Shown here: in pieces, positions 4,696 to 27,928 of the stretch | Layout: each line of letters opens with the position of its first letter | Numbering within the stretch: position 1 is the stretch's first letter | IMG/VR virus record: IMGVR_UViG_3300009174_000252 | Location: 1 to 31,688 of that record | Reading direction: 5' to 3' (one strand) | DNA: 31,688 nucleotides | From: a virus | Translations under genes and position numbers: made by a program | Notes under the pieces: model-generated | What the model was told of the DNA's origin: nothing | Seen by the model: the letters and a program-made list of their open reading frames with translations, nothing else | Database searches by the model: none

Positions 4696-4913
4696 CAGAC
4701 CCCCGCATCGCGCAGATCCTGAGATGCACTGGCGTGCTCCGTCTGAAATCCAGTCGCAAGGGCTAAGTCACGAAGCGCGGTCGCATGCTCAGGCGCATAC
4801 TTCCCGGCGTGCGTGATGGGAGCCGTGGAGACGACCCGATCTGCCCAACTTCCGTCGGCCCAGACATCGTCCGCCCAACTGCCAGCCGCCCACACAGATC
4901 CGATCGCAGCCAT
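4695..4913 (-). CDS. Small Trp-repeat protein in the head-tail cluster
   Basis: The protein has 72 residues; ATG 4913 overlaps the upstream stop as TGATG. The N-terminal third is a short tandem pattern built from Trp-Ala-Asp/Ala-Gly-Ser-Trp units (VWAAGSWADDVWADGSWAD). The rest is an ordinary Ala-rich helix (HATALRDLALATGFQTEHA). Similar tiny proteins with WADGSW-like repeats occur next to phage structural genes, but I know of no assigned function. It may be a minor virion component. Confidence 0.65.
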   Translation of the reverse strand: MAAIGSVWAAGSWADDVWADGSWADRVVSTAPITHAGKYAPEHATALRDLALATGFQTEHASASQDLRDAGV

Positions 4914-7596: not shown

Positions 7597-8736
7597 TTAG
7601 CCGAACACCTTGGCGCCGAGCTCCGGCCGAATCACGTTCGCGCCGTACAGAATGTCGTACGACAACGTTTCCTGCTTGTACTGTCGCGACAACTCGAGTC
7701 GGAGCGCGATCCCGGAGATGGGATCGGTCGGGAGCTGGAAGATGTTCCCGGCCTGGAACGCTTGCTGCAACGGACGCGAGGCAAAGGCCCAGGCGTCACG
7801 ATGGAAGGCCATGTTGACCGTGTACGCCGATGCCACGACGGCCAGGGTTGCCCCGACGGCATACGCTTGCGCCAGAGGCGGGTACACGCTGATGTCGATG
7901 CCGACCGTGGACGAGGCCGTCGCCGCGGCCGTGACGACGTACTGCTTGCTGTCGGTCGACATCGTGAAGAGGTCGCCGACCTTGATCGTCCCAGACGCCG
8001 TCGCATTCAGGATGTGCAATGTCGATGCGCCTGCAACACCGGTCGTGGTGGACACGGCAAAGCCGGTGACCCATCCTGTCCCTGGGGTGAACGTCGTGAT
8101 GTTCTGGTTCATGTACCAATCGAACCCGAGCTTCGTCCCGATCGTCCCGGCCAAAATCCCGCCCTGATCGCCGCGGCCATCGAAGCGCAATACTTCGGGG
8201 ACCATGATGGCGTTGGCTTCGGCCGACGGATCGATGACCAACCGACGATTGTCGATCGGCGCCAAGTTCTGGCTCAAGACTTTCTTGGCGTTCGCGGCAT
8301 TCAACATCGAGCCGCTGAACGGTGTCGTTCCAGGCGTCCCCGTGTACCCGAAGAAGCCCGTATGCTTCCCCCAGATGAACAGGTCGACGTTATTCGCGAG
8401 CGACTTGATCGCTTCGCTCGCCTGCATCCCGAGGAACATCGGATCGACCGAGACGAGATCGTTGTCCGACAAATTGATCGGCGCCTCGTACCACTGGTCC
8501 AGTGTCACCGCTGCGTTGGTCGGTGATGCGTCGACGTTCGAGGCAAAGGTTACGGACGGGGTGACGGCGCGGGCCGCAATCGCCGACGGGATGGGGACGT
8601 TGACAACGTTGCCCTTGCGCTGCGCGTACTGCTGCAGGTCCCGATTGACGAGCTGCGGAAATACGGCTTGCTGTCGAAGCGCGCTCGCCCCTTCGGCGAG
8701 GATCTTCGGCAGGACATTGGTAATGGTGTTTGACAT
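7597..8736 (-). CDS. Major capsid protein (P22 coat-like)
   Basis: The protein has 379 residues. The ribosome site GGAG lies eight bases before ATG 8736. The N-terminus (MSNTITNVLPKILAEGASAL) followed by VNRDLQQYAQRKGNVVNVPI and WYEAPINLSDNDLVS is typical of the P22-type HK97-fold coat family. Residues 215-300 hold an insertion of small beta strands (for example TIKVGDLFTMSTDSKQYVV), comparable with the I-domain found in P22 coat. The C-terminus (LSRQYKQETLSYDILYGANV, then RPELGAKVFG) is also characteristic. The order scaffold, coat, adaptor confirms the assignment. Confidence 0.92.
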   Translation of the reverse strand: MSNTITNVLPKILAEGASALRQQAVFPQLVNRDLQQYAQRKGNVVNVPIPSAIAARAVTPSVTFASNVDASPTNAAVTLDQWYEAPINLSDNDLVSVDPMFLGMQASEAIKSLANNVDLFIWGKHTGFFGYTGTPGTTPFSGSMLNAANAKKVLSQNLAPIDNRRLVIDPSAEANAIMVPEVLRFDGRGDQGGILAGTIGTKLGFDWYMNQNITTFTPGTGWVTGFAVSTTTGVAGASTLHILNATASGTIKVGDLFTMSTDSKQYVVTAAATASSTVGIDISVYPPLAQAYAVGATLAVVASAYTVNMAFHRDAWAFASRPLQQAFQAGNIFQLPTDPISGIALRLELSRQYKQETLSYDILYGANVIRPELGAKVFG

Positions 8737-8781
8737 ATACGACTCCAGTCAGGAGCCCCTCGGCGGGGCGGGTGACCGGCC

Positions 8782-9480: not shown

Positions 9481-9493
9481 CGGCCTACTCCTG

Positions 9494-9510
9494 GACGGGC
9501 ACGGCCCGTC
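9494..9510 (-). promoter_or_regulatory. Small perfect hairpin in the scaffold leader
   Basis: The inverted repeat GACGGGC-3 bases-GCCCGTC lies 14 bases upstream of the GTG start of the scaffold gene, just in front of its AGGAG ribosome site. In the mRNA it would form a 7-bp stem that could tune ribosome access or protect a processed 5' end. The role is inferred. Confidence 0.5.
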
Positions 9511-9522
9511 GATAGGGAATAC

Positions 9523-9557
9523 AAAAAGGCCCTGAAGCGCGCGTGCGCTGCAGGGCC
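9523..9557 (-). terminator. Intrinsic terminator upstream of the scaffold gene
   Basis: On the minus strand, GGCCCTG-C-AGCGC, a four-base loop, and the matching arm GCGCT-T-CAGGGCC form a 13-bp stem with one mismatch, followed at once by TTTTTGT. This is a textbook Rho-independent terminator. It separates the FmdB-like gene from the scaffold and coat genes and sits about 60 bases after a consensus promoter, so it may act as an attenuator. Confidence 0.85.
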
Positions 9558-9618
9558 AGGGAACGACCACATGGTGCAATGTCTGCGACCGCGCCGCGTG
9601 GGCGCGAATCTCTCCAGC

Positions 9619-9647
9619 AATATTGGGAGGGTACCTTACTCTGTCAA
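9619..9647 (-). promoter_or_regulatory. Sigma70-like promoter overlapping the end of the FmdB-like gene
   Basis: TTGACA (perfect -35, 9647-9642), a 17-base spacer, then AATATT (four of six -10 matches, 9624-9619) on the minus strand. Transcription would begin near 9612 and run toward the terminator at 9557-9523 and the scaffold gene. The -35 box overlaps the last codons of the upstream gene, so chance is possible, but the spacing is ideal. Confidence 0.55.
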
Positions 9648-9887
9648 GGATTCTTTTGCGATGACGCGCTCGCCGTTGCGCATCGCGATTAATCGTTTCT
9701 CGAACGCGGTCTCACTCCCGAGGTTTGGCGCGTAGCTATACATCCCGTCGGGCACGCAATGGGGGAGCGGCGCCGTCCGCGCCATCGCGTCCCCGCAGTG
9801 ACAGGTCACCGGCTCGTCGCGCGCAGCGTATTTGCGTAAGCGCTCCAGGCGATGCCCCGCAGGGCACTGGTAGTCGTAGAGTGGCAT
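9636..9887 (-). CDS. FmdB-like zinc ribbon protein
   Basis: The protein has 83 residues beginning MPLYDYQCPAGHRLERLRKY, the signature of the FmdB/putative regulatory zinc-ribbon family. The metal ligands appear as Cys8 and His12 (CPAGH in place of the usual CPxCG), then Cys29 and Cys31. The C-terminal half (SETAFEKRLIAMRNGERVI) is a charged helix. Short FmdB-like ribbons occur in phage head clusters without a known function. It lies between the Maf-like gene and the scaffold, three bases downstream of neither a clear ribosome site nor a gap, so it is probably translated by coupling. Confidence 0.75.
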   Translation of the reverse strand: MPLYDYQCPAGHRLERLRKYAARDEPVTCHCGDAMARTAPLPHCVPDGMYSYAPNLGSETAFEKRLIAMRNGERVIAKESLTE

Positions 9888-9890
9888 GGG

Positions 9891-11042
9891 CTAGACCGGG
9901 ATGTTCGCGACACGCCCCTGCGCATCGACAAAATTAGGAAGGCGATCGAGGAACGCGTTCGGCTTGTCGATCAGCGCATTGGGCAACGTGTCGCCGATCA
10001 GCGTGATCTTCCCCTGGCTCGCGCGAGCCATGTGCACCAGCCACCGCGCACTGATGACCAGATCCGCTTTCGTCATCCAGTATCGACCATCGATCACGCC
10101 GCCGAAGGTCAACGGACTCGCTTCTGACGCCAGGGCGTGTCCCCCATTGGCGTGCATGGTCGTGTGTTCGCGTAGCCAGGCGAGGTGCTCGGGAGAGTTG
10201 AACGTGAGGTCGTGGCGGGGCTCGCCCTGCACGCGAATGGAGCAGTCGGCGCCCAAGACGGTGATGCGCCCAAACCCCATATACGCCGCGACGTCCAACG
10301 CGCGAGTTACGGAACTGAGCCCGGATCCGGCCCGAACACAGGTCGGGTAGAGCAGGGCATACAGCCAGTCCTCGTACGCCATGATCGTCTTCTGTCCCGA
10401 GGCATCATCCCACGCGACGGGAGGCTTCCGAATGCCGACAAAGTTGTGGAACAAGCGCCACGGCCGCGACTTCGCTGTGAGCAAATCCGTGAGATGGGGA
10501 TGCACCGTCGACGCGACGAGATACTCCACATCTGGCGCGTTGAACCATTCCGTGCACATCTGGGGTGTTTGGTCGACCGTAAACCCATGGGTCACACGAT
10601 GCCCATGCTCCGCGAGCCAGGTGACCGCGGAATTGCAGCCCCACACTTGGTCGCCCTGTGGGCACCACTCGGCCGCATGCTCGGCGAGCGAGGGTCCGGC
10701 CCCGCACAACACGAGGTGCTGCCCTGCGGCGCTGCCCTCGACGACCATGTAGCGATCGCGCGCGAAGGGCTCAACTGTATCGTGGAACATGCGCGATTCG
10801 CCAAAGGCGACGGACGGCCGGAACCGATCGAATTCGGCGCACAGCTCCGCATAATCGTCGGGCGTCATAAAGTCTTCGAGTTCGACCATGGCCCGCACTT
10901 GCCACGCGACGGAGTTCCCGACGATCCACGTTTCGTAATGCTCCGCCACCGGATTGCAGAGCTGGACGGTATGATTGGCTGCGGCGTTCTTCTCGGCAGC
11001 CAGAGCATTCTGGCGTTTTCGCTTGTGCGCTTTCTGTGACAT
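9891..11042 (-). CDS. DUF115 / Maf-like putative glycosyltransferase
   Basis: The protein has 383 residues. The central region carries the pattern of the DUF115 (MptE-like, Maf flagellin glycosylation) family: LVLCGAGPSLAEHA at 110-123, WGCNSAVTWLAEHGH at 134-148, a DQTPQM acidic turn at 157-162, SGLSSVTRALDVAAYMGFG at 240-258 and ITVLGADCSI at 260-269. In Maf proteins this core resembles a sialyltransferase-like Rossmann fold that uses CMP-activated nonulosonic acids. A basic, Ala/Lys-rich N-terminus precedes it. It lies between the minor head protein and the FmdB-like gene, inside the virion gene cluster. Related phage proteins exist with unknown function. Transferase activity and substrate are inferred, mainly from the nonulosonic-acid genes at 16.4-21 kb. 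Confidence 0.65.
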   Translation of the reverse strand: MSQKAHKRKRQNALAAEKNAAANHTVQLCNPVAEHYETWIVGNSVAWQVRAMVELEDFMTPDDYAELCAEFDRFRPSVAFGESRMFHDTVEPFARDRYMVVEGSAAGQHLVLCGAGPSLAEHAAEWCPQGDQVWGCNSAVTWLAEHGHRVTHGFTVDQTPQMCTEWFNAPDVEYLVASTVHPHLTDLLTAKSRPWRLFHNFVGIRKPPVAWDDASGQKTIMAYEDWLYALLYPTCVRAGSGLSSVTRALDVAAYMGFGRITVLGADCSIRVQGEPRHDLTFNSPEHLAWLREHTTMHANGGHALASEASPLTFGGVIDGRYWMTKADLVISARWLVHMARASQGKITLIGDTLPNALIDKPNAFLDRLPNFVDAQGRVANIPV

Positions 11043-11045
11043 GAG

Positions 11046-12005
11046 TTATGGGCGTGCTTGGTAATATGCAGGAATGCAGCGGCAATTGTAGGTCGAATCG
11101 CCGGGGATCATCTCACCGTTGCTAAAGGGCTGGTCAAAGGGCACTGTCTCGCCTTCCATCGCCAGATGTTCCGGACGCTCGCGATCGTCTTTGACGCCGA
11201 TCCAGCGTTTGACGAGTCGTGCGCCGTCTACGATCCCCGCGTCGATCGCATCCTGCCACGACAGGCGCTGTCCCGCTTTCAAAGCATCCAGCGTTGCGGT
11301 TCTGGCGTTCGTCTCCGCATTGAACGCCAGCATCTTTTTGCGGTACGCTGCTACCATCGCGTCAATTGTGTCCGCGGGCAGCCCCTCACCGTCGGCGCCG
11401 AACGCGCGCGCGGTCGTACGGTCATATCGCTTGTCCCGAAGCTGTCGGCGTAATGCGGCAGAATCCCCAGTCTCCAGTAGTGTCCGATAGTTGTCGACGG
11501 CGCGGGCTTGATTGGGCGCGAGGCCAATGACGTCTCGGAGGTCGCGCGCCACCGTTCGTGGCCCGACCCCGTCACGCACCGCATTCTCGACATAGGCGCG
11601 TACCGTTTCGCGCACGTCGTCCTTGAGTGTCTGAATGACCTTCGTGTCGAGCGCTCGGATGGCGTCGATAACGCGGGGGTTGAGGACATCGAATGACACC
11701 GCGATCCCCCCGTCGACGCGACCTCCGCGTGGAAGATCCCGGGCGAAATACCGGACGGCGTCCGCGGTGATGCTACGGAGGCGGTCACGCACCGGCAAAA
11801 ACGCACGATCCAAGACCGCGTCCGCGAACGCCGCCTGTAGCAGTGTTTCGAAGTGGCCGCTGTCGATAATGCGGGCAAGCTCCGTTTGTGGGACGGCGTC
11901 GCGGATGATCTGAAAGGCGCGGAGGAGCGCCCGCGAGAGCTCGGGCTCGAGCGCCGCCGCGCGACGTTGCGCGCGAAGCCAGAAGGTGCGCGCGGCGTCA
12001 GTCAC
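11046..12005 (-). CDS. Minor head protein, Mu gpF / SPP1 gp7-like
   Basis: The protein has 319 residues. It is mostly helical, and the C-terminal part holds the family signature: a Lys-Arg-Trp before VKDDRERPEHLAMEGETVPF, then a PGDSTYNCRC motif near the end. These proteins bind the portal and help initiate head assembly or DNA ejection. The gene follows the portal with one small gene between, the usual place. ATG 12005 overlaps the preceding stop by eight bases. Confidence 0.88.
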   Translation of the reverse strand: MTDAARTFWLRAQRRAAALEPELSRALLRAFQIIRDAVPQTELARIIDSGHFETLLQAAFADAVLDRAFLPVRDRLRSITADAVRYFARDLPRGGRVDGGIAVSFDVLNPRVIDAIRALDTKVIQTLKDDVRETVRAYVENAVRDGVGPRTVARDLRDVIGLAPNQARAVDNYRTLLETGDSAALRRQLRDKRYDRTTARAFGADGEGLPADTIDAMVAAYRKKMLAFNAETNARTATLDALKAGQRLSWQDAIDAGIVDGARLVKRWIGVKDDRERPEHLAMEGETVPFDQPFSNGEMIPGDSTYNCRCIPAYYQARP

Positions 12006-12270
12006 TGTCCCCCGACGTGAGCTTGCGCCGCTGCTCCTCCTCGCGCTCCGCCTCGAGTTCCTCCAGGACGTCGGCCGTGTTCAACGCGGTCCCGGTGATG
12101 TCGGCGAGCTTGATCGCGACGCGGGCGCCTCGGGCACTGAGCCCGATCCAGAAGGCTTTGCCGGCCATCCACGCCGCCTCGAATGACTCCTGTTCGCTGA
12201 TGTTGAGGAGCCAACTGGAGCCATCGCGACAGTTCGCGACCAGGTGCGGTCGTTCGTTGACGAGCTTCAT
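11998..12270 (-). CDS. Small hypothetical protein after the portal
   Basis: The protein has 90 residues starting in an ATGA overlap with the portal stop. The N-terminal half is beta-rich with Trp and Cys (HLVANCRDGSSWLLNISEQ), the middle reads GLSARGARVAIKLADITGTA, and the end is a charged helix (VLEELEAEREEEQRRKL). Position between portal and minor head protein suggests a small head-assembly factor. I do not recognise the family. Confidence 0.7.
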   Translation of the reverse strand: MKLVNERPHLVANCRDGSSWLLNISEQESFEAAWMAGKAFWIGLSARGARVAIKLADITGTALNTADVLEELEAEREEEQRRKLTSGDSD

Positions 12271-13844
12271 GCGGCCGTCCCGCCGGACGCCCCTGCTGTC
12301 GCCGCGTCAAGTTGGGCCTGTCGCTCGATTTGCTGCTGCGCGGCAGCCGCGGCAAGATTCGCCTCCATTTGAGCTGCGAGCGTGTCGATGTCGACGTCGG
12401 GGCCGATGCGTCCGCCCGCTTGCCATTCTCGCAATAGGATGTCGACCGGGAAGCCGGCATCTTTGGCGGCCTGCACATAGGCGAGCATGACCTGCGGGTC
12501 CATCATGAGCGCGTCGAAGTCGCGGTTGATTTTGATGCTCCCGCCGTCGCCCAGGCGGAGATACTTCGCGTGAAAGCCGAGCGCCCGCTCGATGCCGTCC
12601 TGGAGGCCACGCGCCGTCACGCCGAGCGAGGAGTCTGACGCCGACTTGTCGATCTGCTTCGCCTTGGCGGTTTCCGCCGCGCGTTTCGACGGCGCGAGCA
12701 TGGCGATACCAAGGACCGCCATGTCACTCTTGATCTCCTCGATCGCCTTGGTGCACTCCCCGAGGGCCGCGCCATCGTGGGTGACATACATCGCTTTGGC
12801 GTTCGGATTCGAAAAGCGGCGCGCGCTGTTCGGACCGAGGACGACCGGCGCGGCGCCTTCCGGCTCCGGATCAATGCCCGTCTCGACGTAGATTGGGACG
12901 CACGTCTTGTGGATCGATGTGGCGCGATCACTCCACTGCTGATAGTGCGCAATATTGAGATACGCGAGATCAAGCAGCGGGGGGTCCGACTCGAACAGGC
13001 TTTTGCGGCCGGAGGTGACAATTTCCGCGATCGGGATCTCCTCCTGTGTGGGGTATGTGCCTTCGTCGACCACGGAGACCATCTTGCGGTCATCCACCTT
13101 GAGGAGTCGATAGCCCACGACGCCGTTACTGGGGTCGCGGTAGAATACCCGATAGCGCACGTCGTCCGTCTCTCCGAACGCGCCATCGGCCACCGACGTA
13201 CATTCGCGCACCACGAGTTGCGTCAACACCGTCCGCCCATCAATCACGGCGGTTCGCCAACTCAGCATCTGCTCTTTGCTGATCGGTACCCAGTAGGGCC
13301 GAAGACGCTGCTCGTCGGCAATACTGAGACGTGCCGCGCCGGTGTTGGGGTAGTCGACGAGAATCGCATTGTGCCCCGTCGCGAGCGCGTCCTGGAGGCG
13401 CTCGCGACAGAACACATCGCCGTGTGTTCCCGCGAGATCGATGTTCTCCCAGTGCCCTACGTCCGTGTCGCTGCCGCGAATTTGGACCGGCACGTCATTG
13501 CCCAGCACGGGGTCTTTCTGAAAGACGAACCCAACCAGCCCCTCGACGGCCTGCTTGAACGCGTTGAAGAACACCGAGCGATTCAACCGGATCGCATAAT
13601 TTCTCGGATCCTCACCCGGGGCTTGCGGCAGATACGTTGGCCCGGCGGCGCGAATGCGTTGCGTGCCCCCCAGGACGTCGCGGATCAGCGCGACGGCGGG
13701 TGCCTGCGCTCTCGCGCAGGGGGAGGGCGTTGACGGGAGATCGCGTTCGTCGCGCGGCCTTTCGGCAGAGACGCCGCCAATGCGGAGCGGGCCGTCGCCG
13801 GGACGGTTACCGTAGTTCGTGGGGTCGTAGCTGGGTGCAGTCAT
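12267..13844 (-). CDS. Portal protein (DUF4055 family)
   Basis: The protein has 525 residues. Family features include TYLPQAPGEDPRNYAIRLNR near 70-88, the FFNAFKQAVEGLVGFVFQ helix, and LLDLAYLNIAHYQQWSD in the stem region, all typical of DUF4055 portals. The C-terminus is a long Gln/Ala-rich helix (AAAAAQQQIERQAQLDAA). Portals form the dodecameric channel for DNA packaging and exit. A GAGG ribosome site lies six bases before ATG 13844. The 69-base gap to the terminase holds only this site and a short GAATG-type repeat. Confidence 0.92.
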   Translation of the reverse strand: MTAPSYDPTNYGNRPGDGPLRIGGVSAERPRDERDLPSTPSPCARAQAPAVALIRDVLGGTQRIRAAGPTYLPQAPGEDPRNYAIRLNRSVFFNAFKQAVEGLVGFVFQKDPVLGNDVPVQIRGSDTDVGHWENIDLAGTHGDVFCRERLQDALATGHNAILVDYPNTGAARLSIADEQRLRPYWVPISKEQMLSWRTAVIDGRTVLTQLVVRECTSVADGAFGETDDVRYRVFYRDPSNGVVGYRLLKVDDRKMVSVVDEGTYPTQEEIPIAEIVTSGRKSLFESDPPLLDLAYLNIAHYQQWSDRATSIHKTCVPIYVETGIDPEPEGAAPVVLGPNSARRFSNPNAKAMYVTHDGAALGECTKAIEEIKSDMAVLGIAMLAPSKRAAETAKAKQIDKSASDSSLGVTARGLQDGIERALGFHAKYLRLGDGGSIKINRDFDALMMDPQVMLAYVQAAKDAGFPVDILLREWQAGGRIGPDVDIDTLAAQMEANLAAAAAQQQIERQAQLDAATAGASGGTAA

Positions 13845-13913
13845 GACGGCCTCGAGGAGAAAATCCAGAGGCCAGGCTGCGACCAGGAGAATGCGAATGA
13901 GAATGCATGGGTG

Positions 13914-15287
13914 TTACATGTACACGGTTTGCGTGACGGCCGTGTTGCGCACGACGGGGAACTGGTAATCGATGTAATAACCGAGCGCGTCGCTAATGTG
14001 CGTTAACTTCGGATCCGCTTTCTTATCGATCTCTCCAGAGCCGCCTTTAAGCGTGCGCACACCTTCGAGATCACGCACCACATGCGGTGCAGCGATCGGA
14101 TCCACCAGCAAATGGATCGTGTCGTCCGCGGCGCGGATCCGGGAATTGACCGCATTGACCCGCGTGCGCTCGGCCGGGTTCGCTGCCTTGAGATAGAACG
14201 TCACGCGATCCCCGAAGCCGGCGAGGCCATGCGCCGGATCGCCGTTGCGGAGGCGATCTCTGGCGATGTCCCAGTCGGAGCCTTGGACTTGCGACGTCCC
14301 GCGCGCGCCGCCCGTAGCATCGCCATACACCTCGACGCTGCCGGTATGCCCTTTCCAGTCCGTGAGGATCTTCCGACACACGGCCGGGGTGTTGGAATTG
14401 TTGTCGATCCACACCTCCCCAATCACCGCCGTGCCCACGACGCTTGTGCCTGGAAATTCCAGTTCTTGGGCGATCGCGGCGACACCGGGTGCCACGTTAA
14501 AATCGAGGCAGACTTTCAGCGGACGCTGCGGATTGTAGCGATCGCGCAGCTTCGCGCGATTGGCGTCGCTGAACGCATAGTAGGCGCGGCCCTCGAAGTT
14601 GACGAAGCTGGCTTCATATTCTTGTTGAAACGTCAACAGGTCGAGATCGCGCCGGGCGGCCTCAATTTCGCTCGCGGGGAGGATGTCGGCACTGGCCCAG
14701 TGGAAGTAGCCCCACTCGCTCGCGTTTCCATGCTCCAACAGGAACGCCTGCGCTTCCTGCGCGCGATCGTAGTAGTGATTGCGCCCCTCGGGCACGCCGA
14801 TCAGGTCGCACCACGCCAATCGATCCGAGAGCGCGGGGCGAATATTGGCGCCCCACGCCTCGGGCTTCATGTTCCCATATTCGTCGAGGATGCCGCCGTC
14901 CACCGGCGCCCCTTCGATCCGCGCCGGTTGATCCATGCCGACGAGAAAGATTTCCCCGCCATGCCAGAGGGGGATGGTGAGATCGCTCTCGGACGGCCGG
15001 CCGCGCATGGCGTCTTTAGGGACCAGACGTTTGAGATCGTCCCAGGCGATCCGCTTGACCTGTCCGTAGGTCGGCGCGGCGTAGAAGTATCGCGGGCGGT
15101 CGAAGGAGGAGCCACGAATGGCGCGACGCACGAGCCGTCGTTTGGCAATTTCGCTTTTCCCGGATCGACGCCCAGCGGGAACGACATTGAAGCGATGGGG
15201 GCTCGCATAGAACGCCGCCTGCTTCTCATGCGGTCGCAGGGGTTGCCACCGCGCATGCAGCGCGGGTGGTGTCTGGAGCACCGTCAC
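13914..15287 (-). CDS. Terminase large subunit
   Basis: The protein has 457 residues. The ATPase shows Walker A GRRSGKSE at 39-46 and Walker B GGILDEYG at 131-138 with Asp135-Glu136. The nuclease half begins at CLDFNVAP near 260 (first metal Asp262) with YGDATGG around 318 and HISDALGYYIDYQFP near the end. The enzyme cuts concatemeric DNA and drives it into the procapsid through the portal. It overlaps the small subunit stop by the ATGA-type junction and directly precedes the portal. Confidence 0.95.
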   Translation of the reverse strand: MTVLQTPPALHARWQPLRPHEKQAAFYASPHRFNVVPAGRRSGKSEIAKRRLVRRAIRGSSFDRPRYFYAAPTYGQVKRIAWDDLKRLVPKDAMRGRPSESDLTIPLWHGGEIFLVGMDQPARIEGAPVDGGILDEYGNMKPEAWGANIRPALSDRLAWCDLIGVPEGRNHYYDRAQEAQAFLLEHGNASEWGYFHWASADILPASEIEAARRDLDLLTFQQEYEASFVNFEGRAYYAFSDANRAKLRDRYNPQRPLKVCLDFNVAPGVAAIAQELEFPGTSVVGTAVIGEVWIDNNSNTPAVCRKILTDWKGHTGSVEVYGDATGGARGTSQVQGSDWDIARDRLRNGDPAHGLAGFGDRVTFYLKAANPAERTRVNAVNSRIRAADDTIHLLVDPIAAPHVVRDLEGVRTLKGGSGEIDKKADPKLTHISDALGYYIDYQFPVVRNTAVTQTVYM

Positions 15288-16096
15288 GCCGCCACCTCGG
15301 GTTGCGGGGTCGTCCCAATCGTGGCGGCGTCCATCGCGTCGAGCGTGGCCCGCAGTTTGGCCGCGCGATCCTCGTCGGTTTCGGCGGAGGATGGCGCCTT
15401 CGGGTCAAACATCCCGAAGTGACGGCCCACGTTGACGAGTGCGGCATGCTGGTCGTGCAGCTTCGCTTCCAAGCCGTCCTTGGTTTGCTTCACGCCGGCA
15501 TATAAGCAGAGCGCCGAGCGAGAGAGTCGTCGGGTATCATGCACGTACACGCGCTCGACGCCTTCGCCGAAACACTCAGGACACTTGGGATTGGGGGGCA
15601 GCGTGCCGTTGTAGCCAATGCCGCCCTCCTCGTCAAACACGGCGACACTGTTTTTTGTCTGCACCGCCTCCCAGGCGGTGCGCTTCCGTGCGATCTCTTG
15701 GGTGGTGTGTTGATACCGGAAGTCCGTCCCATGGCAATAGCGACAGCAGGTGCGGCGATACTCGACGATTTCGCGCGGGTCCGCCGTGGCGATCATCCAG
15801 AGTCGCTCGAGGACCAGGTCGGCCGTGATTTGCAGGCGTTCCGCGCGCGCGGCGTTGAGGCGCGCAATTTCGGCCTGCACCTCTGGGTCCGCCAGGAGCC
15901 GGCTTCCTTCCTGGCGTGCACGACTCTCGGCGTAGCCGACTTTGCGCGCGGCGTCGGTCGCGTTGAATGTCTCGGACGCGATGATTTCCGCCGCGAACAG
16001 CAATTTCTTGCGGCGGGTCTTCTCGCGCGCGGCCGGACTACGACCGTCGGAGGGATGCGGAGGAGCGGAATCGCTGCGACGCCGACGTGAGGTCAC
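15284..16096 (-). CDS. Terminase small subunit with zinc motif
   Basis: The protein has 270 residues. The N-terminal third is the DNA-binding helix-turn-helix of Terminase_2 proteins (ETFNATDAARKVGYAESRAR, then GSRLLADPEVQAEI). A zinc site is formed by CCRYC near 117-121 and CPEC near 168-171, followed by GEGVERVYVHDTRRLS and LYAGVKQTKDGLEAKLHDQ, a pattern shared by many small terminases with this insertion. The protein recognises the packaging site and recruits the large subunit, whose gene overlaps its end. Confidence 0.92.
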   Translation of the reverse strand: MTSRRRRSDSAPPHPSDGRSPAAREKTRRKKLLFAAEIIASETFNATDAARKVGYAESRARQEGSRLLADPEVQAEIARLNAARAERLQITADLVLERLWMIATADPREIVEYRRTCCRYCHGTDFRYQHTTQEIARKRTAWEAVQTKNSVAVFDEEGGIGYNGTLPPNPKCPECFGEGVERVYVHDTRRLSRSALCLYAGVKQTKDGLEAKLHDQHAALVNVGRHFGMFDPKAPSSAETDEDRAAKLRATLDAMDAATIGTTPQPEVAA

Positions 16097-16380
16097 GGGT
16101 GCTCGATCACCTCACACATCGTCCCACACCCGCGATGCTTGCCCCCGCAGGTGACGACGCGGCCACGCCCACTGCGGGCCTGGTTGGATGCCACTGCCAC
16201 GACTTCGAGACGCACGGAGCCGGGGATTGCCATGACGCGTCGGTTGCACACAGGGCAGATCGCATAAGAAAAGACAATGGCCCGCGTCTCGGTAACGGTT
16301 ACCGTGACGTGGGCCAGGATGCGACCACTCGGGGATGTTGCGGTTACGTGGAAGATTGGGGTCGGGCGCTGGTTCGTCAA
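16093..16380 (-). CDS. Small Cys-rich zinc-binding-like protein
   Basis: The protein has 95 residues. I place the start at TTG 16380 because it overlaps the aminotransferase stop as TTGA and has GGAGAG eight bases upstream. A beta-rich first half (RILAHVTVTVTETRAIVF) precedes CPVC at 42-45, and later CGGKHRGCGTMC supplies further Cys and His, so one treble-clef or ribbon zinc site is likely. It lies between the sugar block and the terminase. I do not recognise the family; it may be a phage head or packaging accessory rather than part of the sugar pathway. Confidence 0.65.
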   Translation of the reverse strand: MTNQRPTPIFHVTATSPSGRILAHVTVTVTETRAIVFSYAICPVCNRRVMAIPGSVRLEVVAVASNQARSGRGRVVTCGGKHRGCGTMCEVIEHP

Positions 16381-17471
16381 TGGGGAAGCTCTCCAAGGTC
16401 GTGGATGGCGCGGCGAATGGCCTCGGCGTTCCGCTCCGCCGATCGGATGTCGTTGGTTTGGAACTGGACCAGGCGCGGCTGCAGGTCTTCGGCGACGGGG
16501 CAGCCTTTTGTGAACTCGCTGTAGAAGTGGACTTCGTTGCCGACGCGATGCGTCACGGCCTTGCGTGGATCAAGGTACACGAAGGCCGGTTCCTCATACG
16601 TCAACTTCCACGCGGCATAGGGTCGCTCGCCGCCATGCCGCACAATCGCGTCGACAAAAGGATGCCAGAGGTCGGCGGATGCGAGTGCGACGGTGTAGCA
16701 CCAGTAGTCGTGCGTCCAGCCATCCGGGACATGCTGGGGTGTAATCCAGGAACAACCGGCGACGGATTGGCGGTAGAGTGCGGCGGCGGCTCGCCGATTG
16801 TGCAGCGCAGCATCGGCGAGCGCCATCTTCCCGTAGCGCTCAAGATTTCGGAGACCAAAGTCCGCCGTGACGTCGTTCATGCGGTAGTTATACCCCATCG
16901 AGTGGTGCCGTTCGTACGTCGGCGACTTGAGCACTGCAGGGTCGATGCGTGGCTGATCGGCACGCATGCGGTAGCCGAGCGACGAGAATTCGCGGGCACA
17001 TGTGGCGAGCTCCTCGTCGTTCGTGACGAGCATTCCACCCTCCCCAAGCGGGAGAATCTTCGATGCCTGAAACGAGTACGAGAGAAACGCCGGGGGATGC
17101 TCCATCTGCGTCCCACCAACCCGCAAGGTCTGCGCTGCGTCGACGATGGTGCGCCCGCCACTCCACGGAAGATTGAGCCCGTAGAGGCTGACCGGCAGAA
17201 ATGCTGCTGCGTCCGGCGGAAATTGATTCATCAGCCACGTTCGCTTGTCTATGTCGCAGAACACAGGGACAGCCCCGGCATGCAACACCGCGATCGTTGT
17301 CGCGCTCATGGTGAGCGGCGGGACTGGCACGCGATCACCCGGCTTCACGCCAAGTGCGATCAGTGCTGTGTGAAGCGTTGCAGTCCCATTGCAGAGCGCA
17401 ATGGCGTATTTCGCGCCGACGTACGCAGCGAACTCACGCTCGAAGGCGGCGACAGTTGAGCCGTTTTTCAC
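16377..17471 (-). CDS. DegT/DnrJ/EryC1 aminotransferase, PseC/SpsC-like
   Basis: The protein has 364 residues from GTG 17471. This start is chosen because GGAGG sits seven bases upstream and GTGA overlaps the previous stop; an ATG at 17528 would overlap that gene by 60 bases. PLP features are clear: NGTATLH at 28-34 for phosphate binding, Asp111 in IVDAAQTL for the ring nitrogen, and Lys138 in SYSFQASK followed by EGGMLVTND. Such enzymes aminate 4-keto sugars on UDP or GDP carriers. Beside a PseB-like dehydratase, the likely reaction is amination of the UDP-4-keto-6-deoxy sugar at C4 (PseC step). The exact substrate is not provable from sequence. Confidence 0.85.
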   Translation of the reverse strand: MKNGSTVAAFEREFAAYVGAKYAIALCNGTATLHTALIALGVKPGDRVPVPPLTMSATTIAVLHAGAVPVFCDIDKRTWLMNQFPPDAAAFLPVSLYGLNLPWSGGRTIVDAAQTLRVGGTQMEHPPAFLSYSFQASKILPLGEGGMLVTNDEELATCAREFSSLGYRMRADQPRIDPAVLKSPTYERHHSMGYNYRMNDVTADFGLRNLERYGKMALADAALHNRRAAAALYRQSVAGCSWITPQHVPDGWTHDYWCYTVALASADLWHPFVDAIVRHGGERPYAAWKLTYEEPAFVYLDPRKAVTHRVGNEVHFYSEFTKGCPVAEDLQPRLVQFQTNDIRSAERNAEAIRRAIHDLGELPH

Positions 17472-18079
17472 AGTGGGCCTCCAACGCACTGGTATCCGCG
17501 AATACTCACGCTCTCCACCCTCACGCATGCCTCGATATAGTCCACCTCTGTATCAATGGTCCAGACGCCGGGTGGGGCTGGGGGTGGTGGTGCGCCCGGA
17601 AATAGTGCGTGGGTAATGTGTTCGCGCGGAAATGCGCCATCGCAGTTCTGCTGCGCGGCATCCAACATCGCCAGCGTGAAGGCTTCTCCTCCAATCTCGA
17701 CCGGAAGGCGCTCGCCGAACGCGACGCGACGCATCTTCATGGGCGACTTGAACGGATCGTCCGGCGTATAGCGAAACACGACGCTCTCGGGGTTCCATCG
17801 GTACGTATGCGCGCAATGCCAAAAGCGTCCGAGTACATCGCGCTCGTCGCCATCGAACGCGAAAATCTTCGCGCCGATATGGCACAATTCATCACCAAAA
17901 GCGCTGTGGAGATCGTCGCGAGGGATGGCTATCACACAGTTCTTCCGGTCAAACGCTTCACACGCAATGCGCCATGCACGGGCGATCAGCGTTTCGTCGC
18001 CGAGCTTCAACAGCATCTTCCCGGGCAGACGGGTGCTGTTATATCGAGCCTGGATGATACACAGGGGGCTCACGTCCAT
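17468..18079 (-). CDS. SpsF/PseF-like nucleotidyltransferase (CMP-sugar synthetase)
   Basis: The protein has 203 residues from ATG 18079, with GGGGAG eight bases upstream. Residues 7-23 (CIIQARYNSTRLPGKML) are the nucleotide-binding signature of the CTP_transf_3 family, which includes NeuA, PseF and SpsF. VIAIPRDD at 49-56 and RYTPDDPF at 103-110 match the IATxxxxxD and RxTGDxP positions of the family. Related enzymes activate nonulosonic acids as CMP sugars. At 203 residues it is near the short end for the family. It overlaps the aminotransferase by GTGA. CTP use is inferred from family and neighbours. Confidence 0.8.
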   Translation of the reverse strand: MDVSPLCIIQARYNSTRLPGKMLLKLGDETLIARAWRIACEAFDRKNCVIAIPRDDLHSAFGDELCHIGAKIFAFDGDERDVLGRFWHCAHTYRWNPESVVFRYTPDDPFKSPMKMRRVAFGERLPVEIGGEAFTLAMLDAAQQNCDGAFPREHITHALFPGAPPPPAPPGVWTIDTEVDYIEACVRVESVSIRGYQCVGGPL

Positions 18080-18420
18080 GACAACACTCCCCACCGTTCG
18101 GTGATTACAAGATTTCTATGCACCTCGAAGCCGCGTCCGTTGGCCGTTCCGCCGACGTACACGCGCTGCCCTTCGGCGTCCACGTCGACGCACCAGAGAT
18201 AATCGCGCCAAATCGGATCGTTGGGTGAATGGACGTAGAGGTGCGCCAAGTCAGCCGCCCGCGGCAAGTACTCCCGCGCTGACGGCGCGCGCGGTTCGGA
18301 GCGTGTCGGCATGACGTAGATGGGTGTGGCATCGCGGTGCGCAAACGCCTCCTGTTCAAACCACACCTGACCGGGACAGAATAGCTCAGGATGTTCGCGG
18401 CGAATGTCGAGGAGATTCAT
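18070..18420 (-). CDS. Unknown protein in the sugar operon (116 aa)
   Basis: The protein has 116 residues starting ATG 18420 in an ATGA overlap with the gene before. It begins NLLDIRREHPELFCPGQVWF and ends with VYVGGTANGRGFEVHRNLV. Trp and aromatic residues are frequent (WFEQEAF, IWRDYLWCVDVD), suggesting a small globular beta-rich domain. I cannot assign a family. Its conserved overlap inside the nonulosonic-acid block makes a role there possible, including one of the missing steps, but generic phage accessory function is equally possible. Confidence 0.65.
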   Translation of the reverse strand: MNLLDIRREHPELFCPGQVWFEQEAFAHRDATPIYVMPTRSEPRAPSAREYLPRAADLAHLYVHSPNDPIWRDYLWCVDVDAEGQRVYVGGTANGRGFEVHRNLVITERWGVLSWT

Positions 18421-18659
18421 GGAAACCCAACCTGGAGGTAATGTGGCGTGAGTGGAATTCCGGCCGGTGTTCCGAAATACACATCCTCCCCGTCCGCAAT
18501 CCGTCGCCGCTCCTCGGGTGAAAACGTCCATCGGCAGACGCGATGCACCTGACCGTCCCGGTATCGAACCAACGCGGCAACGATCGGCGCATATTCGAGT
18601 TGTTCTTCGGCGATAGTTATCTCGTCCGACCCGTCAATACGTGGCGCGATAGCTCTCAT
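18417..18659 (-). CDS. Unknown small protein in the sugar operon (80 aa)
   Basis: The protein has 80 residues; ATG 18659 forms ATGA with the YdcF-like stop. It starts MRAIAPRIDGSDEITIAEEQ and continues with YAPIVAALVRYRDGQVHRV and WTFSPEERRRIADGEDVYFG. The last segment resembles small phage proteins in which a short helix is followed by a DGEDVYF-type turn. It has no catalytic motif I can see, so an accessory phage role is as likely as a sugar role. Confidence 0.65.
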   Translation of the reverse strand: MRAIAPRIDGSDEITIAEEQLEYAPIVAALVRYRDGQVHRVCRWTFSPEERRRIADGEDVYFGTPAGIPLTPHYLQVGFP

Positions 18660-19249
18660 CGTCCCTCCCATTGCGCGAGATAGGCCACTCCGTCAGCGTA
18701 GCTAGCAACGTCGCCCTGGGCACAATAGCGGTCGATCTTGTACAACTCATCCTCGAGCAGTTCCGCGCGGCTGCGATCCATGCCGGCCGGCGGTCGATGC
18801 CAGAGCGTCTGATTCGCGCCTAGTGGTGCGATACGGATCGTGTCATGTTGACCAGCGTCGCGCAGTGCCTGGACGAACGTCAGCACGACGCGCGGCATGT
18901 GATACGGCGACCCGACGAGCAGCATCTGTCGCCACTGATGCTCGATCGCCATCGCCACAATCGCGACGGCCTGTTCGCGCGTGTTCTGCGAACTGCCCTC
19001 GATGAGGATGCGATCATGGGCAATGCCCATCCCCATCAGCGCCCCGGCGCACGCGTCCCCGCCCAGCCACCGCGGCGGGGCGTGCTTTCCGCCAGACACC
19101 ACAAGCAGCGGTGCGGCCCCCTCATGAAAGGCCCGGGCGGCGAAGGTCAGCCGCGGGGCTGCGTCTTCGCCACAGAGGACAACGATGGCGTCCGCGGCGA
19201 CTGGGGGTGCGCTGTGCACGAGGGCACACAACCGATCTTGGTAGGTCAT
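18656..19249 (-). CDS. YdcF-like (DUF218) protein
   Basis: The protein has 197 residues. DUF218 features are present: DAIVVLCGEDAAPRLTFAAR at 20-39, LLVVSGGKHAPP around 48-59, ILIEGSSQNTREQAVAI around 81-97 and MLLVGSPYHMPRVVLTF near 109-125. DUF218 proteins (YdcF, SanA, ElyC) have a Rossmann-like fold; E. coli YdcF binds S-adenosylmethionine, and membrane-bound members act in envelope carbohydrate metabolism. This one lacks a membrane anchor. It is coupled by ATGA to the synthase gene, so a role with a sugar or nucleotide-sugar is suggested, perhaps filling the hydrolase step, but this is inference. Confidence 0.75.
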   Translation of the reverse strand: MTYQDRLCALVHSAPPVAADAIVVLCGEDAAPRLTFAARAFHEGAAPLLVVSGGKHAPPRWLGGDACAGALMGMGIAHDRILIEGSSQNTREQAVAIVAMAIEHQWRQMLLVGSPYHMPRVVLTFVQALRDAGQHDTIRIAPLGANQTLWHRPPAGMDRSRAELLEDELYKIDRYCAQGDVASYADGVAYLAQWEGR

Positions 19250-20040
19250 GCCATCATCGCCTCGGTGCGCCGAACGTCGTGCACCATTTGGTTGAACTGG
19301 AATTCATTCATGGACACGTTGGCCTCAAGCTCAGACGGTTCGTTGCAGAGGTGGAAGTGGTATTCGAGGAGCTTCGCGCCACGCGCGACTGCGGCGATCG
19401 GGAGTGCAGGGTCAAGGCAGTGGGATGACAGGCCAAGCCATCCACTCTCAGGCTTTTGCCAGGGGTCGGCGCCGAAGAACTTGGGCAGCTTCACATCTTC
19501 CGCCGGCGTCGGATAGCCAGGTGGACAATACAACGGATGCACCGGCGGACATCCAGCGATCCCCATCAGGTGCAACAGATCGGAATGACTGACCAACACT
19601 GGCTTGCCAACCTCGCACGCCACGGTAAGCAGATTCACGTCATGATTGTCAAGTCGTGCGATTTTATAGGCGGGGCAATCGACGGATTGCAAGACGGCGA
19701 GGGATTCAGCACCGAAGACCGATGCGAATGGCACAATACCGATCCGACGGGCGCGTTGGAATAGGGACGGGAACCAGTCGAGCGGCGTCCGCGCCTTCTC
19801 ATACAAGGTGCGCATGGACCATCCCTGCGAGCCCCAGGGCTCCGGCGCTGGACCGTCGCCGCGGAGTGCCAGCAGCTCGTCTGGGGTATAGCACTGCATT
19901 TTAACCATATCCGCGCCCGCCGATTTCGCAGCCTCGATTAGACGTAGTGCGCGCTGGAATGAGCCGTTGTGGTTATTGCTGATCTCGGCCACAAAACGGC
20001 ATGGATGGTTCTCGCCAATCTCGATACCTTCGATGTTCAT
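19246..20040 (-). CDS. PseI/NeuB-like nonulosonic acid synthase, short form
   Basis: The protein has 264 residues and starts in an ATGA overlap with the dehydratase. The TIM-barrel signatures of the NeuB family are visible: FVAEISNNHNGSFQRALRLI at 16-35, ADMVKMQCYTPDEL at 43-56, AYKIARLDNHDVNLL at 124-138, GLSSHCLDP at 203-211 and a metal-site His at 228 (LEYHFHL, usually EKHF). Such enzymes condense phosphoenolpyruvate with a six-carbon amino sugar to make sialic, legionaminic or pseudaminic acid. Family members are usually about 340-350 residues with a C-terminal SAF (antifreeze-like) domain; that domain is absent here. Lys of EKH is replaced by Tyr. Activity is likely but unproven. Confidence 0.82.
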   Translation of the reverse strand: MNIEGIEIGENHPCRFVAEISNNHNGSFQRALRLIEAAKSAGADMVKMQCYTPDELLALRGDGPAPEPWGSQGWSMRTLYEKARTPLDWFPSLFQRARRIGIVPFASVFGAESLAVLQSVDCPAYKIARLDNHDVNLLTVACEVGKPVLVSHSDLLHLMGIAGCPPVHPLYCPPGYPTPAEDVKLPKFFGADPWQKPESGWLGLSSHCLDPALPIAAVARGAKLLEYHFHLCNEPSELEANVSMNEFQFNQMVHDVRRTEAMMA

Positions 20041-21017
20041 GCGATCATCTCCCGCAATTGTGGAATGGTGTACCGTGGCGCGGTGTCGCTGCGGTACGTG
20101 AAGTTGTCAGGCATCAATCGCCCCTCTGGTTCCGGCAGTTCGCCCCAGGGCCGAGCCGGCGGCTCGATGACGTAATGATTGTCGACGCGGTATGTTGTCG
20201 CGGCTTCATCCGACGTGATGAGCGTCTCGTGCAACTTCTCTCCGGGACGTAACCCGATATGTTGGAGCGGCGCCCCTGGAGCGATCGCTTCGGCGAGCTG
20301 ACTGATACTGCTGGCCCCAATACGCGGAATGAAGATTTCCCCGCCGCGCATGTTGCGCAGGGCCAGGAGCACCAGGTCAACAGCGTCGTCCATGTGCATC
20401 CAAAAGCGCGTGCATCGTTCGTCGGTGACGGTGAGGATGCGACCGGCAGCAGCCTGTGCGCGCCAAATGGGCACCACGGACCCCGTCGAGCCCAGCACAT
20501 TGCCGTAGCGCGTGGCGCTGAACCGCGTCGGCGTGCCCGCCGCGTAGACATTTGCTCCCAGCCAGAGCCGCTCTGCCGCGAGCTTGCCAGTGCCGTAGAT
20601 CGTGTTCGGCGCCGCGGCTTTGTCCGTGGAGAGAAGTACGGCCTGCGTGATGCCGCGTTCGATACACGCCCGCGCGACATGCTGCGTGCCGATGACGTTG
20701 GTTTGGATGGATTCCCAGGGATCCGCTTCGCAGGATTCGACACGCTTCTGCGCGGCCGCATGAATCACGACGTCGACACCGCGACACGCGTCTGAGATGC
20801 GCGTCGCATCCCGGACGTCGCCCAGCGCGAATCGAATTCTGGCGTCGTGGAACTCCGCACGCATGGCGGCTTGTGCCGCCTCGCCGCGCGAGAAGACGAC
20901 AACGCGTCGTGCGCCATCCTTGAGCGCACGACGCACGAAGGCACGACCGAATGCGCCTGTGCCACCCGTGACGAGCACGGATTGTTGTGTGAGCGGTGTC
21001 GTTGGCGCCAGTGTCAT
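20037..21017 (-). CDS. PseB-like UDP-GlcNAc 4,6-dehydratase (inverting type)
   Basis: The protein has 326 residues from ATG 21017, where GGAGG lies seven bases upstream; the GTG/ATG at 21035 adds only six residues and lacks such a site. NAD(P) binding appears as TGGTGAFG at 17-24. The catalytic set Thr131-Asp132-Lys133 with Tyr141 and Lys145 falls in STDKAAAPNTIYGTGK, the arrangement known for FlaA1/PseB of Helicobacter. RYGNVLGSTGSVVPIW and RFWMHMDDAVDLV are further family marks. The reaction makes the UDP-4-keto-6-deoxy-AltNAc that starts pseudaminic acid synthesis. It heads the operon with the synthase, cytidylyltransferase and aminotransferase. Confidence 0.88.
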   Translation of the reverse strand: MTLAPTTPLTQQSVLVTGGTGAFGRAFVRRALKDGARRVVVFSRGEAAQAAMRAEFHDARIRFALGDVRDATRISDACRGVDVVIHAAAQKRVESCEADPWESIQTNVIGTQHVARACIERGITQAVLLSTDKAAAPNTIYGTGKLAAERLWLGANVYAAGTPTRFSATRYGNVLGSTGSVVPIWRAQAAAGRILTVTDERCTRFWMHMDDAVDLVLLALRNMRGGEIFIPRIGASSISQLAEAIAPGAPLQHIGLRPGEKLHETLITSDEAATTYRVDNHYVIEPPARPWGELPEPEGRLMPDNFTYRSDTAPRYTIPQLREMIA

Positions 21018-21059
21018 TGGACGCCTCCGGCCCACGCCTTAGCTATGCACGCATCGCGC

Positions 21060-21353
21060 TCACGGCTTGAGGTATTCCATCCCGAAATACTCGCCCGGTG
21101 GTGGCAATGGATGTCGTCGGACCTCTTCGACGCGATACACCACGTCGGCATACATCGCCGTACGAATGGCGCGACAGTACTGATCGCCCTCGTCGATGAC
21201 GCGCCACTGAAGTTCGACGCCGGCGTGCGCGTTTGCGGGGTGCCAGAGCTGCCAGTTGAGGTGGCTACTGATCGCGCGGACGATGCCGTCCACCCGCAGG
21301 CGATAGCAGAGGAGGCCCGGGTCGTCGTTAGGCGGTGGTGTGTAGCGACGCAT
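21060..21353 (-). CDS. Hypothetical protein upstream of the sugar operon
   Basis: The protein has 97 residues, beginning MRRYTPPPNDDPGLLCYRLR and including WQLWHPANAHAGVELQWRV and VVYRVEEVRRHPLPPPGEYF. The latter ends in a proline-rich turn. No family recognised. It lies three bases from the small gene before it and 42 bases before the dehydratase, so it is probably on the same transcript. Confidence 0.7.
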   Translation of the reverse strand: MRRYTPPPNDDPGLLCYRLRVDGIVRAISSHLNWQLWHPANAHAGVELQWRVIDEGDQYCRAIRTAMYADVVYRVEEVRRHPLPPPGEYFGMEYLKP

Positions 21354-21356
21354 GGG

Positions 21357-21563
21357 TTACTGGTCCCGGGCCCCGACGTCGTGCGGATCGTCTGAGAGGA
21401 AAAACCATTCGCCCGATTCGCCCTGGATGAGGCGATAGGGCGCCTCGACGAGGTCGAGGTAATACACGTCGTCGCTGCGGTAACATACGGGGTAGCAGCG
21501 TCCCACCAGGGGGCCGTTGACACACAGGACGTCCAAGTCTGGGAGAGCAAGGGAGGTCTGCAT
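21357..21563 (-). CDS. Small hypothetical protein
   Basis: The protein has 68 residues: MQTSLALPDLDVLCVNGPL, then VGRCYPVCYRSDDVYYLDLV and GESGEWFFLSDDP. It is beta-rich with an aromatic-acidic end. A TGAGGT sequence sits immediately before the ATG, closer than usual, so initiation may be inefficient. It is the first minus-strand gene after a 208-base gap, so it may be the first gene of the sugar transcript. No family recognised. Confidence 0.6.
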   Translation of the reverse strand: MQTSLALPDLDVLCVNGPLVGRCYPVCYRSDDVYYLDLVEAPYRLIQGESGEWFFLSDDPHDVGARDQ

Positions 21564-21605
21564 ACCTCAACAGATGCCGAGGGGTTACACAGGGTCCGTG
21601 ACGCG

Positions 21606-21803
21606 GTGGTGACGCCCCGGGATAGACTCTGGTCCATGGAATATCCAACGGAGATGGAATTGCTCGAGGTGGTGGCGAAGCTCTTTGCGTGCGCGGTCAC
21701 CCGGGACTGGGGTGGGCTGGAATGCTGGGCGGAGCTCCTCGTGTGGGGACTACAGCTTCGGAGAGAGGCCCTCATCTCTCCTCCTTGGCCATCTCAGTGG
21801 TGA
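21606..21803 (+). CDS. Possible plus-strand ORF in the 208-base gap
   Basis: The gap 21564-21771 has no confident minus-strand gene. Its plus strand encodes 65 residues from GTG 21606 or 55 from ATG 21636, reading MEYPTEMELLEVVAKLFACA and then GGLECWAELLVWGLQLRREA, which looks like a real helical protein. Ribosome-site support is weak. A minus-strand frame over the same DNA starts in an ATGA overlap but is Ser/Thr-rich and looks like a shadow. It would be the only plus-strand gene here, so chance remains likely. Confidence 0.28.
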   Translation: MVTPRDRLWSMEYPTEMELLEVVAKLFACAVTRDWGGLECWAELLVWGLQLRREALISPPWPSQW

Positions 21804-27232: not shown

Positions 27233-27928
27233 TCATGCGACCATCCGGTGTTGGAGATGGGAGAGGAGTTGCGTGCCGAGGTATTCGGTGTAGGATGGTG
27301 GGATGGCTTGTGCGAGCTCGTCGCAGGTCATCCAGTTGATGCCAAGGGCGCGCTCACCGTCCGCCTTTTTGAACTGACCACCGGCGACGGTCACGATTCC
27401 TGAGACACCCCACGCGCCCTTGCCCGAACTCGCGTTGAGTGTCCCTTTGCGCCGGTCATTGATGCGGCGTCCGTTCCCAATGACCTGGTCGTGCTTGACG
27501 TGCTCGGGACTCATCAGCAACATCGAGCTTTCAAACCGGCGATGGCGGTAACACGGAAGCCCGAACATGCGACCGCACAACACCACGCCGCCAAGCGGAG
27601 CATCCTCCACGTTCTCGATGATCCACGGCTTGCCAATCGAGTTCAGCAATTCACGCGTCGGATCGATGAGGAGCGGCCACGTTCGCCCTTTGAGCCACGG
27701 AAGGTGCCGAAGACGGCTATATCCCTGGCACGGCGGCGATGCATGGATGGCATCGTACTCATGGCCATGCGCCGCTAGATATTCGAGCGCGTCACCCTGC
27801 ACGAATTCAAACGGGTACCGCGGCTGGGGCTTGATGTCCACACCGACCACGTCGAAGCCCGCGCGGTGATAGCCCATCCCAGCACCTCCCGCTCCGCAGA
27901 AGAGATCCAATAACCTAGGCTTCCCCAT
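27233..27928 (-). CDS. Cytosine-C5 DNA methyltransferase, compact phage type
   Basis: The protein has 231 residues from ATG 27928, with GGAGG six bases upstream; the longer frame from 28075 lies inside the gene before. Motif I is LLDLFCGAGGAGMGY at 6-20, motif IV is SPPCQGYSR with nucleophile Cys67, motif VI is ENVEDAP at 105-111, motif VIII lies near YRHRRFE at 127-133 and motif X near IPPSYTEYLGTQLL at the end. It adds a methyl group to cytosine C5, probably to protect phage DNA from restriction. It is shorter than typical enzymes, so the target-recognition region is small. No partner endonuclease is visible. Confidence 0.88.
   Translation of the reverse strand: MGKPRLLDLFCGAGGAGMGYHRAGFDVVGVDIKPQPRYPFEFVQGDALEYLAAHGHEYDAIHASPPCQGYSRLRHLPWLKGRTWPLLIDPTRELLNSIGKPWIIENVEDAPLGGVVLCGRMFGLPCYRHRRFESSMLLMSPEHVKHDQVIGNGRRINDRRKGTLNASSGKGAWGVSGIVTVAGGQFKKADGERALGINWMTCDELAQAIPPSYTEYLGTQLLSHLQHRMVA

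Follow-up and report, generated by a model that had tools for sequence, protein, structure and literature searches.

The window analysed here, a 31,688-base stretch that makes up the whole of IMG/VR virus record IMGVR_UViG_3300009174_000252 and is a fragment of a phage genome, carries a cassette of six genes (16377-21017) that appears, by protein family, to be a nonulosonic-acid-type block covering four of the six steps of pseudaminic acid synthesis. About 5 kb downstream, within the head operon, lies a gene for a Maf/MptE-family protein. We think that these genes probably form a self-encoded virion-glycosylation system, in which the phage would make a nonulosonic acid and the Maf-like enzyme would attach it to a virion protein. 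The cassette is part of the core gene set of a phage clade and is as conserved there as the capsid protein. The evidence consists of protein families, catalytic residues, a fold comparison, conserved gene order, co-occurrence and purifying selection, and centers on the following genes (lengths in amino acids, aa; UDP and CMP, uridine diphosphate and cytidine monophosphate):

20037..21017, minus strand: PseB-like NAD-dependent UDP-sugar 4,6-dehydratase, 326 aa (TIGR03589), cassette gene 1
19246..20040, minus strand: PseI/NeuB-type synthase, 264 aa (PF03102)
18656..19249, minus strand: DUF218 protein, 197 aa (PF02698)
18070..18420, minus strand: conserved protein of 116 aa with no assigned family and 12 homologues in the same slot
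17468..18079, minus strand: SpsF-type cytidylyltransferase, presumed CMP-sugar synthetase (PF02348)
16377..17471, minus strand: DegT/DnrJ aminotransferase, PseC/LegC-like, GTG start (PF01041)
9891..11042, minus strand: Maf/MptE-family protein, predicted CMP-nonulosonate:protein glycosyltransferase (PF01973, fold match)
7597..8736, minus strand: P22-type major capsid protein, candidate acceptor (PF11651, E 1e-17)

Cassette enzymes and their catalytic residues

A sequence-only reading of the window had placed four enzyme genes between 16377 and 21017 and had assigned four of the six pseudaminic acid steps to them. All four are found there on the minus strand with their catalytic residues intact, and the step count holds by family. 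The block itself is larger than the four genes then described, with the DUF218 gene and the 116-aa gene standing between NeuB and SpsF. As to the proposed single transcription unit, the ATGA or GTGA overlaps are indeed present at PseB/NeuB (20040), NeuB/DUF218 (19249) and SpsF/aminotransferase (17471), but NeuB and SpsF are not adjacent, a gap of approximately 235 nucleotides separates DUF218 from the conserved start of the 116-aa gene, and a single transcript can only be presumed; the 116-aa gene (18420-18070) in turn overlaps the SpsF start.

The PseB-like protein matches TIGR03589 with an E value of 2.5e-106 and 355 bits (cut-off 407.75), compared with 219 bits for FnlA and 46 bits for LegB. 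Its residues S130 T131 D132 K133, Y141 and K145 are invariant in 14 homologues, in agreement with the TDK-Tyr-Lys catalytic set that had been read from the sequence. The synthase matches PF03102 (E 1.7e-38), scores higher against the PseI model TIGR03586 (170 bits) than against NeuB (114 bits), and finds PseI 8h2c as its best profile match in the PDB. Residues E19, K47, Q49, K126, S205, H207, E226 and H228 are invariant among 14 homologues and align with the corresponding PseI and SpsE motifs; from established knowledge of NeuB, we take them to be the phosphoenolpyruvate (PEP), metal and lysine positions. The tree groups the 14 phage synthases in a single clade with 100/100 support, set on a long stem and apart from other phage NeuB proteins and the bacterial ones.

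The SpsF-like protein belongs to the SpsF/CTP_transf_3 type (PF02348, E 3.5e-13), and family-model searches gave no PseF match for the window protein. The aminotransferase (PF01041, E 1.7e-49) scores 139 bits with PseC and 133 bits with LegC, two models that perform about equally across the aminotransferases of 15 members, and its match begins only at about position 28 of the PseC profile. The lysine named before, Lys138, is correctly numbered if counting begins at the GTG start; like D111, it does not vary among 15 homologues. The remaining two proteins are also regular parts of the cassette: PF02698 is found in 13/13 members for DUF218, while the 116-aa protein matches no Pfam family above chance and its model (pLDDT 89) no fold in the PDB (best E 1.9).

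Recurrence of the cassette in a phage clade

A scan of IMG/VR with the aminotransferase returned five contigs at 54-64% identity, and scans with a NeuB alignment, with a Maf-like alignment and with the portal protein added further members. The order PseB, NeuB, DUF218, 116-aa gene, SpsF, aminotransferase is identical in 16 other IMG/VR contigs (L044, L046, L047, L063, L072, L077, L078, L079, L080, L081, L082, L083, L084, L085, L088 and L117), some of them cut at contig ends; partial cassettes are present in two more contigs (L045 and L067). All members are of metagenomic origin. With this order found again in many independent contigs, an assembly join of bacterial and phage DNA, the artifact that had been considered a danger to the earlier interpretation, is excluded. 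Terminase, portal, capsid and tail genes are collinear with the cassette across these independent contigs, which identifies the genome as that of a tailed phage.

To decouple the survey from the cassette, we used the portal protein as a cassette-independent query; its results are a sample, and what follows holds among the matches listed. Every contig with a portal at least 50% identical that reaches far enough contains both the cassette and the Maf-like gene, and no contig with a portal at most 42% identical shows either. Mean mutual similarity of the cassette proteins is 0.43-0.66, compared with 0.55 for the portal and 0.59 for the capsid protein. Because the members are all about equally distant from one another, the identities of cassette and structural genes show mostly flat correlations, which neither support nor exclude co-inheritance. 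The ratio of nonsynonymous to synonymous substitution rates (dN/dS) is 0.06-0.20 for the six cassette genes in the close group L077-L082 and 0.03-0.07 for the Maf-like gene (L060-L062); the pair L044/L045 gives 0.27-0.64, a noisy estimate from few changes (dS 0.01-0.21). The six genes and the Maf-like gene are therefore under purifying selection where this is measurable.

Within this conserved frame, individual parts have been exchanged. In L047, GroES- and sulfotransferase-like genes accompany a divergent SpsF-type protein (35% in A11) in the SpsF slot, so that what is kept would be the activity and not the particular gene. The GroES (Cpn10) gene of this contig (L047:5074-5370) lies inside the cassette, between the 116-aa gene and SpsF, and in L077 the corresponding slot (4545-4904) is taken by a small gene with no Pfam match. 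The large terminase subunit (TerL) has been replaced between members, with 29-66% identity to the window TerL where detected; the whole TerS/TerL segment (window 13914-16096) is swapped for distant or undetectable versions, and the cassette, portal and capsid genes stay put. L088 has its cassette between TerL and the portal gene. The 42%-identical portal of L123 is directly followed by a different NeuB relative without SAF domain and a methyltransferase-like gene (L123:6264-7094), and nothing of the kind is seen there in the close relative L124.

The Maf-like protein and the proposed glycosylation route

The Maf-like gene, which the earlier reading had overlooked, is what puts virion decoration ahead of the other two roles suggested for the sugar, alteration of host glycans and receptor masking; these are now less favored. 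PF01973 is matched by 15/15 of the Maf-like homologues (best 1e-13), and the window protein scores 33.2 bits alone (cut-off 34.6) and 35.8 bits with its frame neighbours in the genome search. This domain, Maf_flag10, resembles the sialyltransferase Cst-II, and Maf enzymes attach nonulosonic acids to Ser/Thr residues of flagellin (PMC11339370). A fold comparison was needed because the Maf-like alignment profile gave only spurious, myosin-binding matches against PDB sequences. The AlphaFold model (pLDDT 86) finds the Maf flagellin glycosyltransferase 5mu5 as the top Foldseek match (E 5.7e-8, prob 1.00), followed by archaeal MptE 8sd5 (2.8e-5) and, lower down, by the CMP-sialyltransferases ST8SiaIII 5bo6 and ST6GalNAc2. 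At 383 aa in the window and approximately 330-410 aa overall, the phage protein is shorter than 5mu5 (632 aa), a member of the Maf family, whose architecture has three domains with a helical one at the C-terminus. A scan of viral contigs with the single sequence and a tblastn search of named phages gave nothing; a three-member alignment gave 22 loci.

In 10/10 members that reach the region, the gene sits between the MuF-like head gene and the scaffold/capsid genes (the window, L046, L047, L060/L077, L063, L067, L072, L083, L117 and L103; of these, L067 shows the last three cassette genes only and L103 the aminotransferase only). PF01973 was found in 0/11 TerL-related contigs or phages without the cassette and in 4/12 other phages with a distant NeuB, the latter count being suggestive, though the sample is small. 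More than one Maf-like gene is present in L117 (12679 and 16519), L065 and L070, which might mean two acceptors. A sugar O-methyltransferase (TIGR04371, above cut-off in both cases) lies inside the L084 cassette and beside the Maf-like gene in L103. A zinc-ribbon gene adjoins the Maf-like gene in the window, L046, L055, L056 and L103, and the aminotransferase gene in L063, L072 and L088.

From these data, we infer the following substrates, product, acceptor and timing. During infection, the cassette would make a nonulosonic acid, starting with the conversion of UDP-GlcNAc to a 4-keto-6-deoxy sugar by the PseB-like enzyme and its amination by the DegT enzyme. N-acylation and release of UDP, steps that belong to PseH and PseG, would come from the host or be carried out by the DUF218 and 116-aa proteins. 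The freed hexose would then be condensed with PEP to a nine-carbon acid by the NeuB/PseI-like enzyme and activated with CTP (cytidine triphosphate) by the SpsF-like enzyme to give a CMP sugar. Finally, the head operon would supply the Maf/MptE-family protein, which would move the sugar to Ser/Thr of a structural protein in the cytoplasm, as bacterial Maf does with flagellin. Glycosylation of a virion has a precedent in mycobacteriophages, for which glycosylated capsids are reported (PMC11256854).

Several observations weigh against this reading, the first of them concerning the product. The PseB-, PseI- and PseC-like proteins all score under the equivalog cut-offs; the SAF domain is absent from all phage synthases, the complete ones of which (234-264 aa) comprise the catalytic barrel only, while the closest synthase homologues in the Gemmatimonadota search group have 347-354 aa and room for such a domain; and the PseH model TIGR03585 and the PseG model TIGR03590 find nothing in the window or in 12 cassette contigs. 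The two steps are therefore absent, supplied by the host, or performed by the DUF218 and 116-aa proteins, and pseudaminic acid as the product is unproven because PseH and PseG were not found and the synthase always lacks SAF. Of the pseudaminic/legionaminic-type pathway first proposed, a nonulosonic-type block remains, the near-tie between PseC and LegC adding to the reasons not to be more specific. The same facts, with the long stem of the phage synthase clade and an SpsF-like protein that among NCBIfam models scores best, weakly, with cytidylyltransferases for 3-deoxy-D-manno-octulosonic acid (KDO), would fit the activation of another sugar acid, the product of a NeuB relative that lacks SAF and acts without PseG or PseH. 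We nevertheless regard this as quite unlikely: the synthase keeps its metal, PEP and lysine positions without exception, the PseB-like identity is clear, and the same KDO-like scores are given by the SpsF-type enzyme of a bacterial locus, L108:506-3696 (Gemmatimonadota search group), where its gene adjoins PseG-, PseH- and full-length PseI-type genes. Of the bacterial loci found, this one is the closest counterpart. The PseG model TIGR03590 does detect its target in this locus (E 8.3e-14). At the opposite extreme, the phage pathway may be complete but streamlined, with the DUF218 and 116-aa proteins replacing or obviating PseG and PseH, the SAF-less synthase giving a new CMP-sugar and a minimal Maf decorating the capsid, such that the clade would coat its virions without host sugars; we consider this extension rather unlikely.

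The other points against a self-encoded virion-glycosylation system concern the transferase. The TM-scores are modest (0.41 of the query for Maf 5mu5), archaeal pterin pyrophosphokinases also belong to PF01973 and also match by fold, MptE of this Pfam family being the second-best hit, and the Maf-like gene, at 5 kb from the cassette, may have a transcript of its own. The protein might thus be functionally separate, for example a pterin or nucleotide pyrophosphokinase that merely rides in the same phages. Its full co-occurrence with the cassette within the clade, the PF01973 counts given above for phages with a distant NeuB and for TerL-related records without the cassette, and the best fold match to Maf make such a separate role very unlikely.

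Alternatively, the nonulosonic acid could be destined for the host surface (flagellin, capsule or lipopolysaccharide), for instance to block superinfection, with the Maf-like protein glycosylating host flagellin. Phage O-acetyltransferases act on Acinetobacter nonulosonates, so phage sugar genes can alter host glycans (PMC6586298), and flagellin is the substrate of bacterial Maf (PMC11339370). We hold this to be unlikely, however, since the Maf-like gene lies within the head operon in every member showing it, no lipid-linked-sugar transferase, flippase or polymerase was seen, and the cassette was found in no integrated prophage. The Maf-like profile found a single contig in a Gemmatimonadetes metagenome-assembled genome (L103), which itself consists of phage genes throughout, and none in 394 other genomes of the Gemmatimonadetes phylum; since the bin of a phage contig says little about its host, we claim none.

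Related systems and neighboring genes

Phage sugar genes are usually viewed as occasional cargo. Here, an entire phage clade has both sugar synthesis and a Maf-type transferase among its core genes, a combination that we did not find in the open-licence literature searched; nor did we find there a phage nonulosonic cassette with a Maf-like gene, an absence that is not proof. If the proposed function is correct, the clade would offer a small, ready-made means of O-glycosylating a protein other than flagellin with nonulosonic acid, would explain the sialic-acid-like genes of some phages, and would permit testing what benefit a sialic-acid-like coat might bring to a phage (stability, adsorption, grazing, immune recognition). 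The conserved DUF218 protein and the 116-aa protein of unmatched fold also gain a concrete pathway context in which they can be tested.

The nearest parallel is the bacterial Pse/Leg pathway with Maf (Campylobacter, Aeromonas, Clostridium), where PseB-, PseC/LegC- and PseI-type enzymes are likewise encoded in the same genome as a cytidylyltransferase and a PF01973 transferase. The phage set differs in being core and phage-borne, without PseH or PseG found, with a SAF-less synthase and with the DUF218 and 116-aa genes within the block; its PF01973 protein is short and encoded in a head operon, with no flagellin. The Bacillus subtilis sps legionaminic pathway (spsC, D, E, F, G, M; PMC7439481) shares the SpsF-type putative cytidylyltransferase and the NeuB-type SpsE, but has the acetyltransferase SpsD and SpsG, neither of which is in the phage block by family search. 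Mycobacteriophages Che8 and Rita (PMC11256854) also encode glycosyltransferases, and there the glycan is on the major capsid protein; that report deals with glycosyltransferases, whereas here nonulosonate-type synthesis is present too and the transferase is of the Maf family.

Among other phages, Marine virus AG-345-L05 and contig L002 share NeuB and aminotransferase, or PseB, SpsF and N-acetyl sugar amidotransferase, but in other gene sets and orders, with NeuB 24-35% identical, and not as the six-gene cassette. L002 (IMGVR_UViG_3300018063_000018, 8156-16377) has in a row PseB-like, aminotransferase-like, full-length NeuB (340 aa), N-acetyl sugar amidotransferase (TIGR03573, above cut-off), HisF-like, SpsF-like, methyltransferase-like and GNAT-like genes; two PF01973 genes are found in other parts of this contig. 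L099, L101 and L102 carry a distant NeuB with a PF01973 gene 10-15 kb upstream; in L101, where NeuB has 222 aa, its gene lies close to epimerase-like and radical-SAM-like genes and to a cytidylyltransferase-glycosyltransferase 2 fusion.

The conserved genes of the window are all on the minus strand. After the aminotransferase follow the small Cys gene, TerS, TerL, portal, MuF-like, PF01973, zinc-ribbon-like, scaffold-like, P22-type capsid and tail tube genes; those not listed above include:

16093..16380, minus strand: small Cys-containing protein adjoining the aminotransferase gene (same-place homologues in L046, L047, L063, L072, L088 and L103)
13914..15287, minus strand: terminase large subunit TerL (phrog_2, E 1.4e-31)
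12267..13844, minus strand: portal protein, DUF4055 (PF13264, E 1.8e-31)
11046..12005, minus strand: MuF-like minor head protein (PF04233, E 1.9e-10)
9636..9887, minus strand: small CxxC zinc-ribbon-like protein adjoining the Maf-like gene

Upstream of PseB, a long frame (21014-21775) was rejected as spurious; it covers two small plausible genes, 21563-21357 (68 aa) and 21353-21060 (97 aa). DNA hypermodification was set aside, as a gene making hydroxymethyl-pyrimidine was not seen in the window. The early region includes a C5-cytosine methyltransferase-like gene at 27233-28075 (PF00145, E 1.1e-5).

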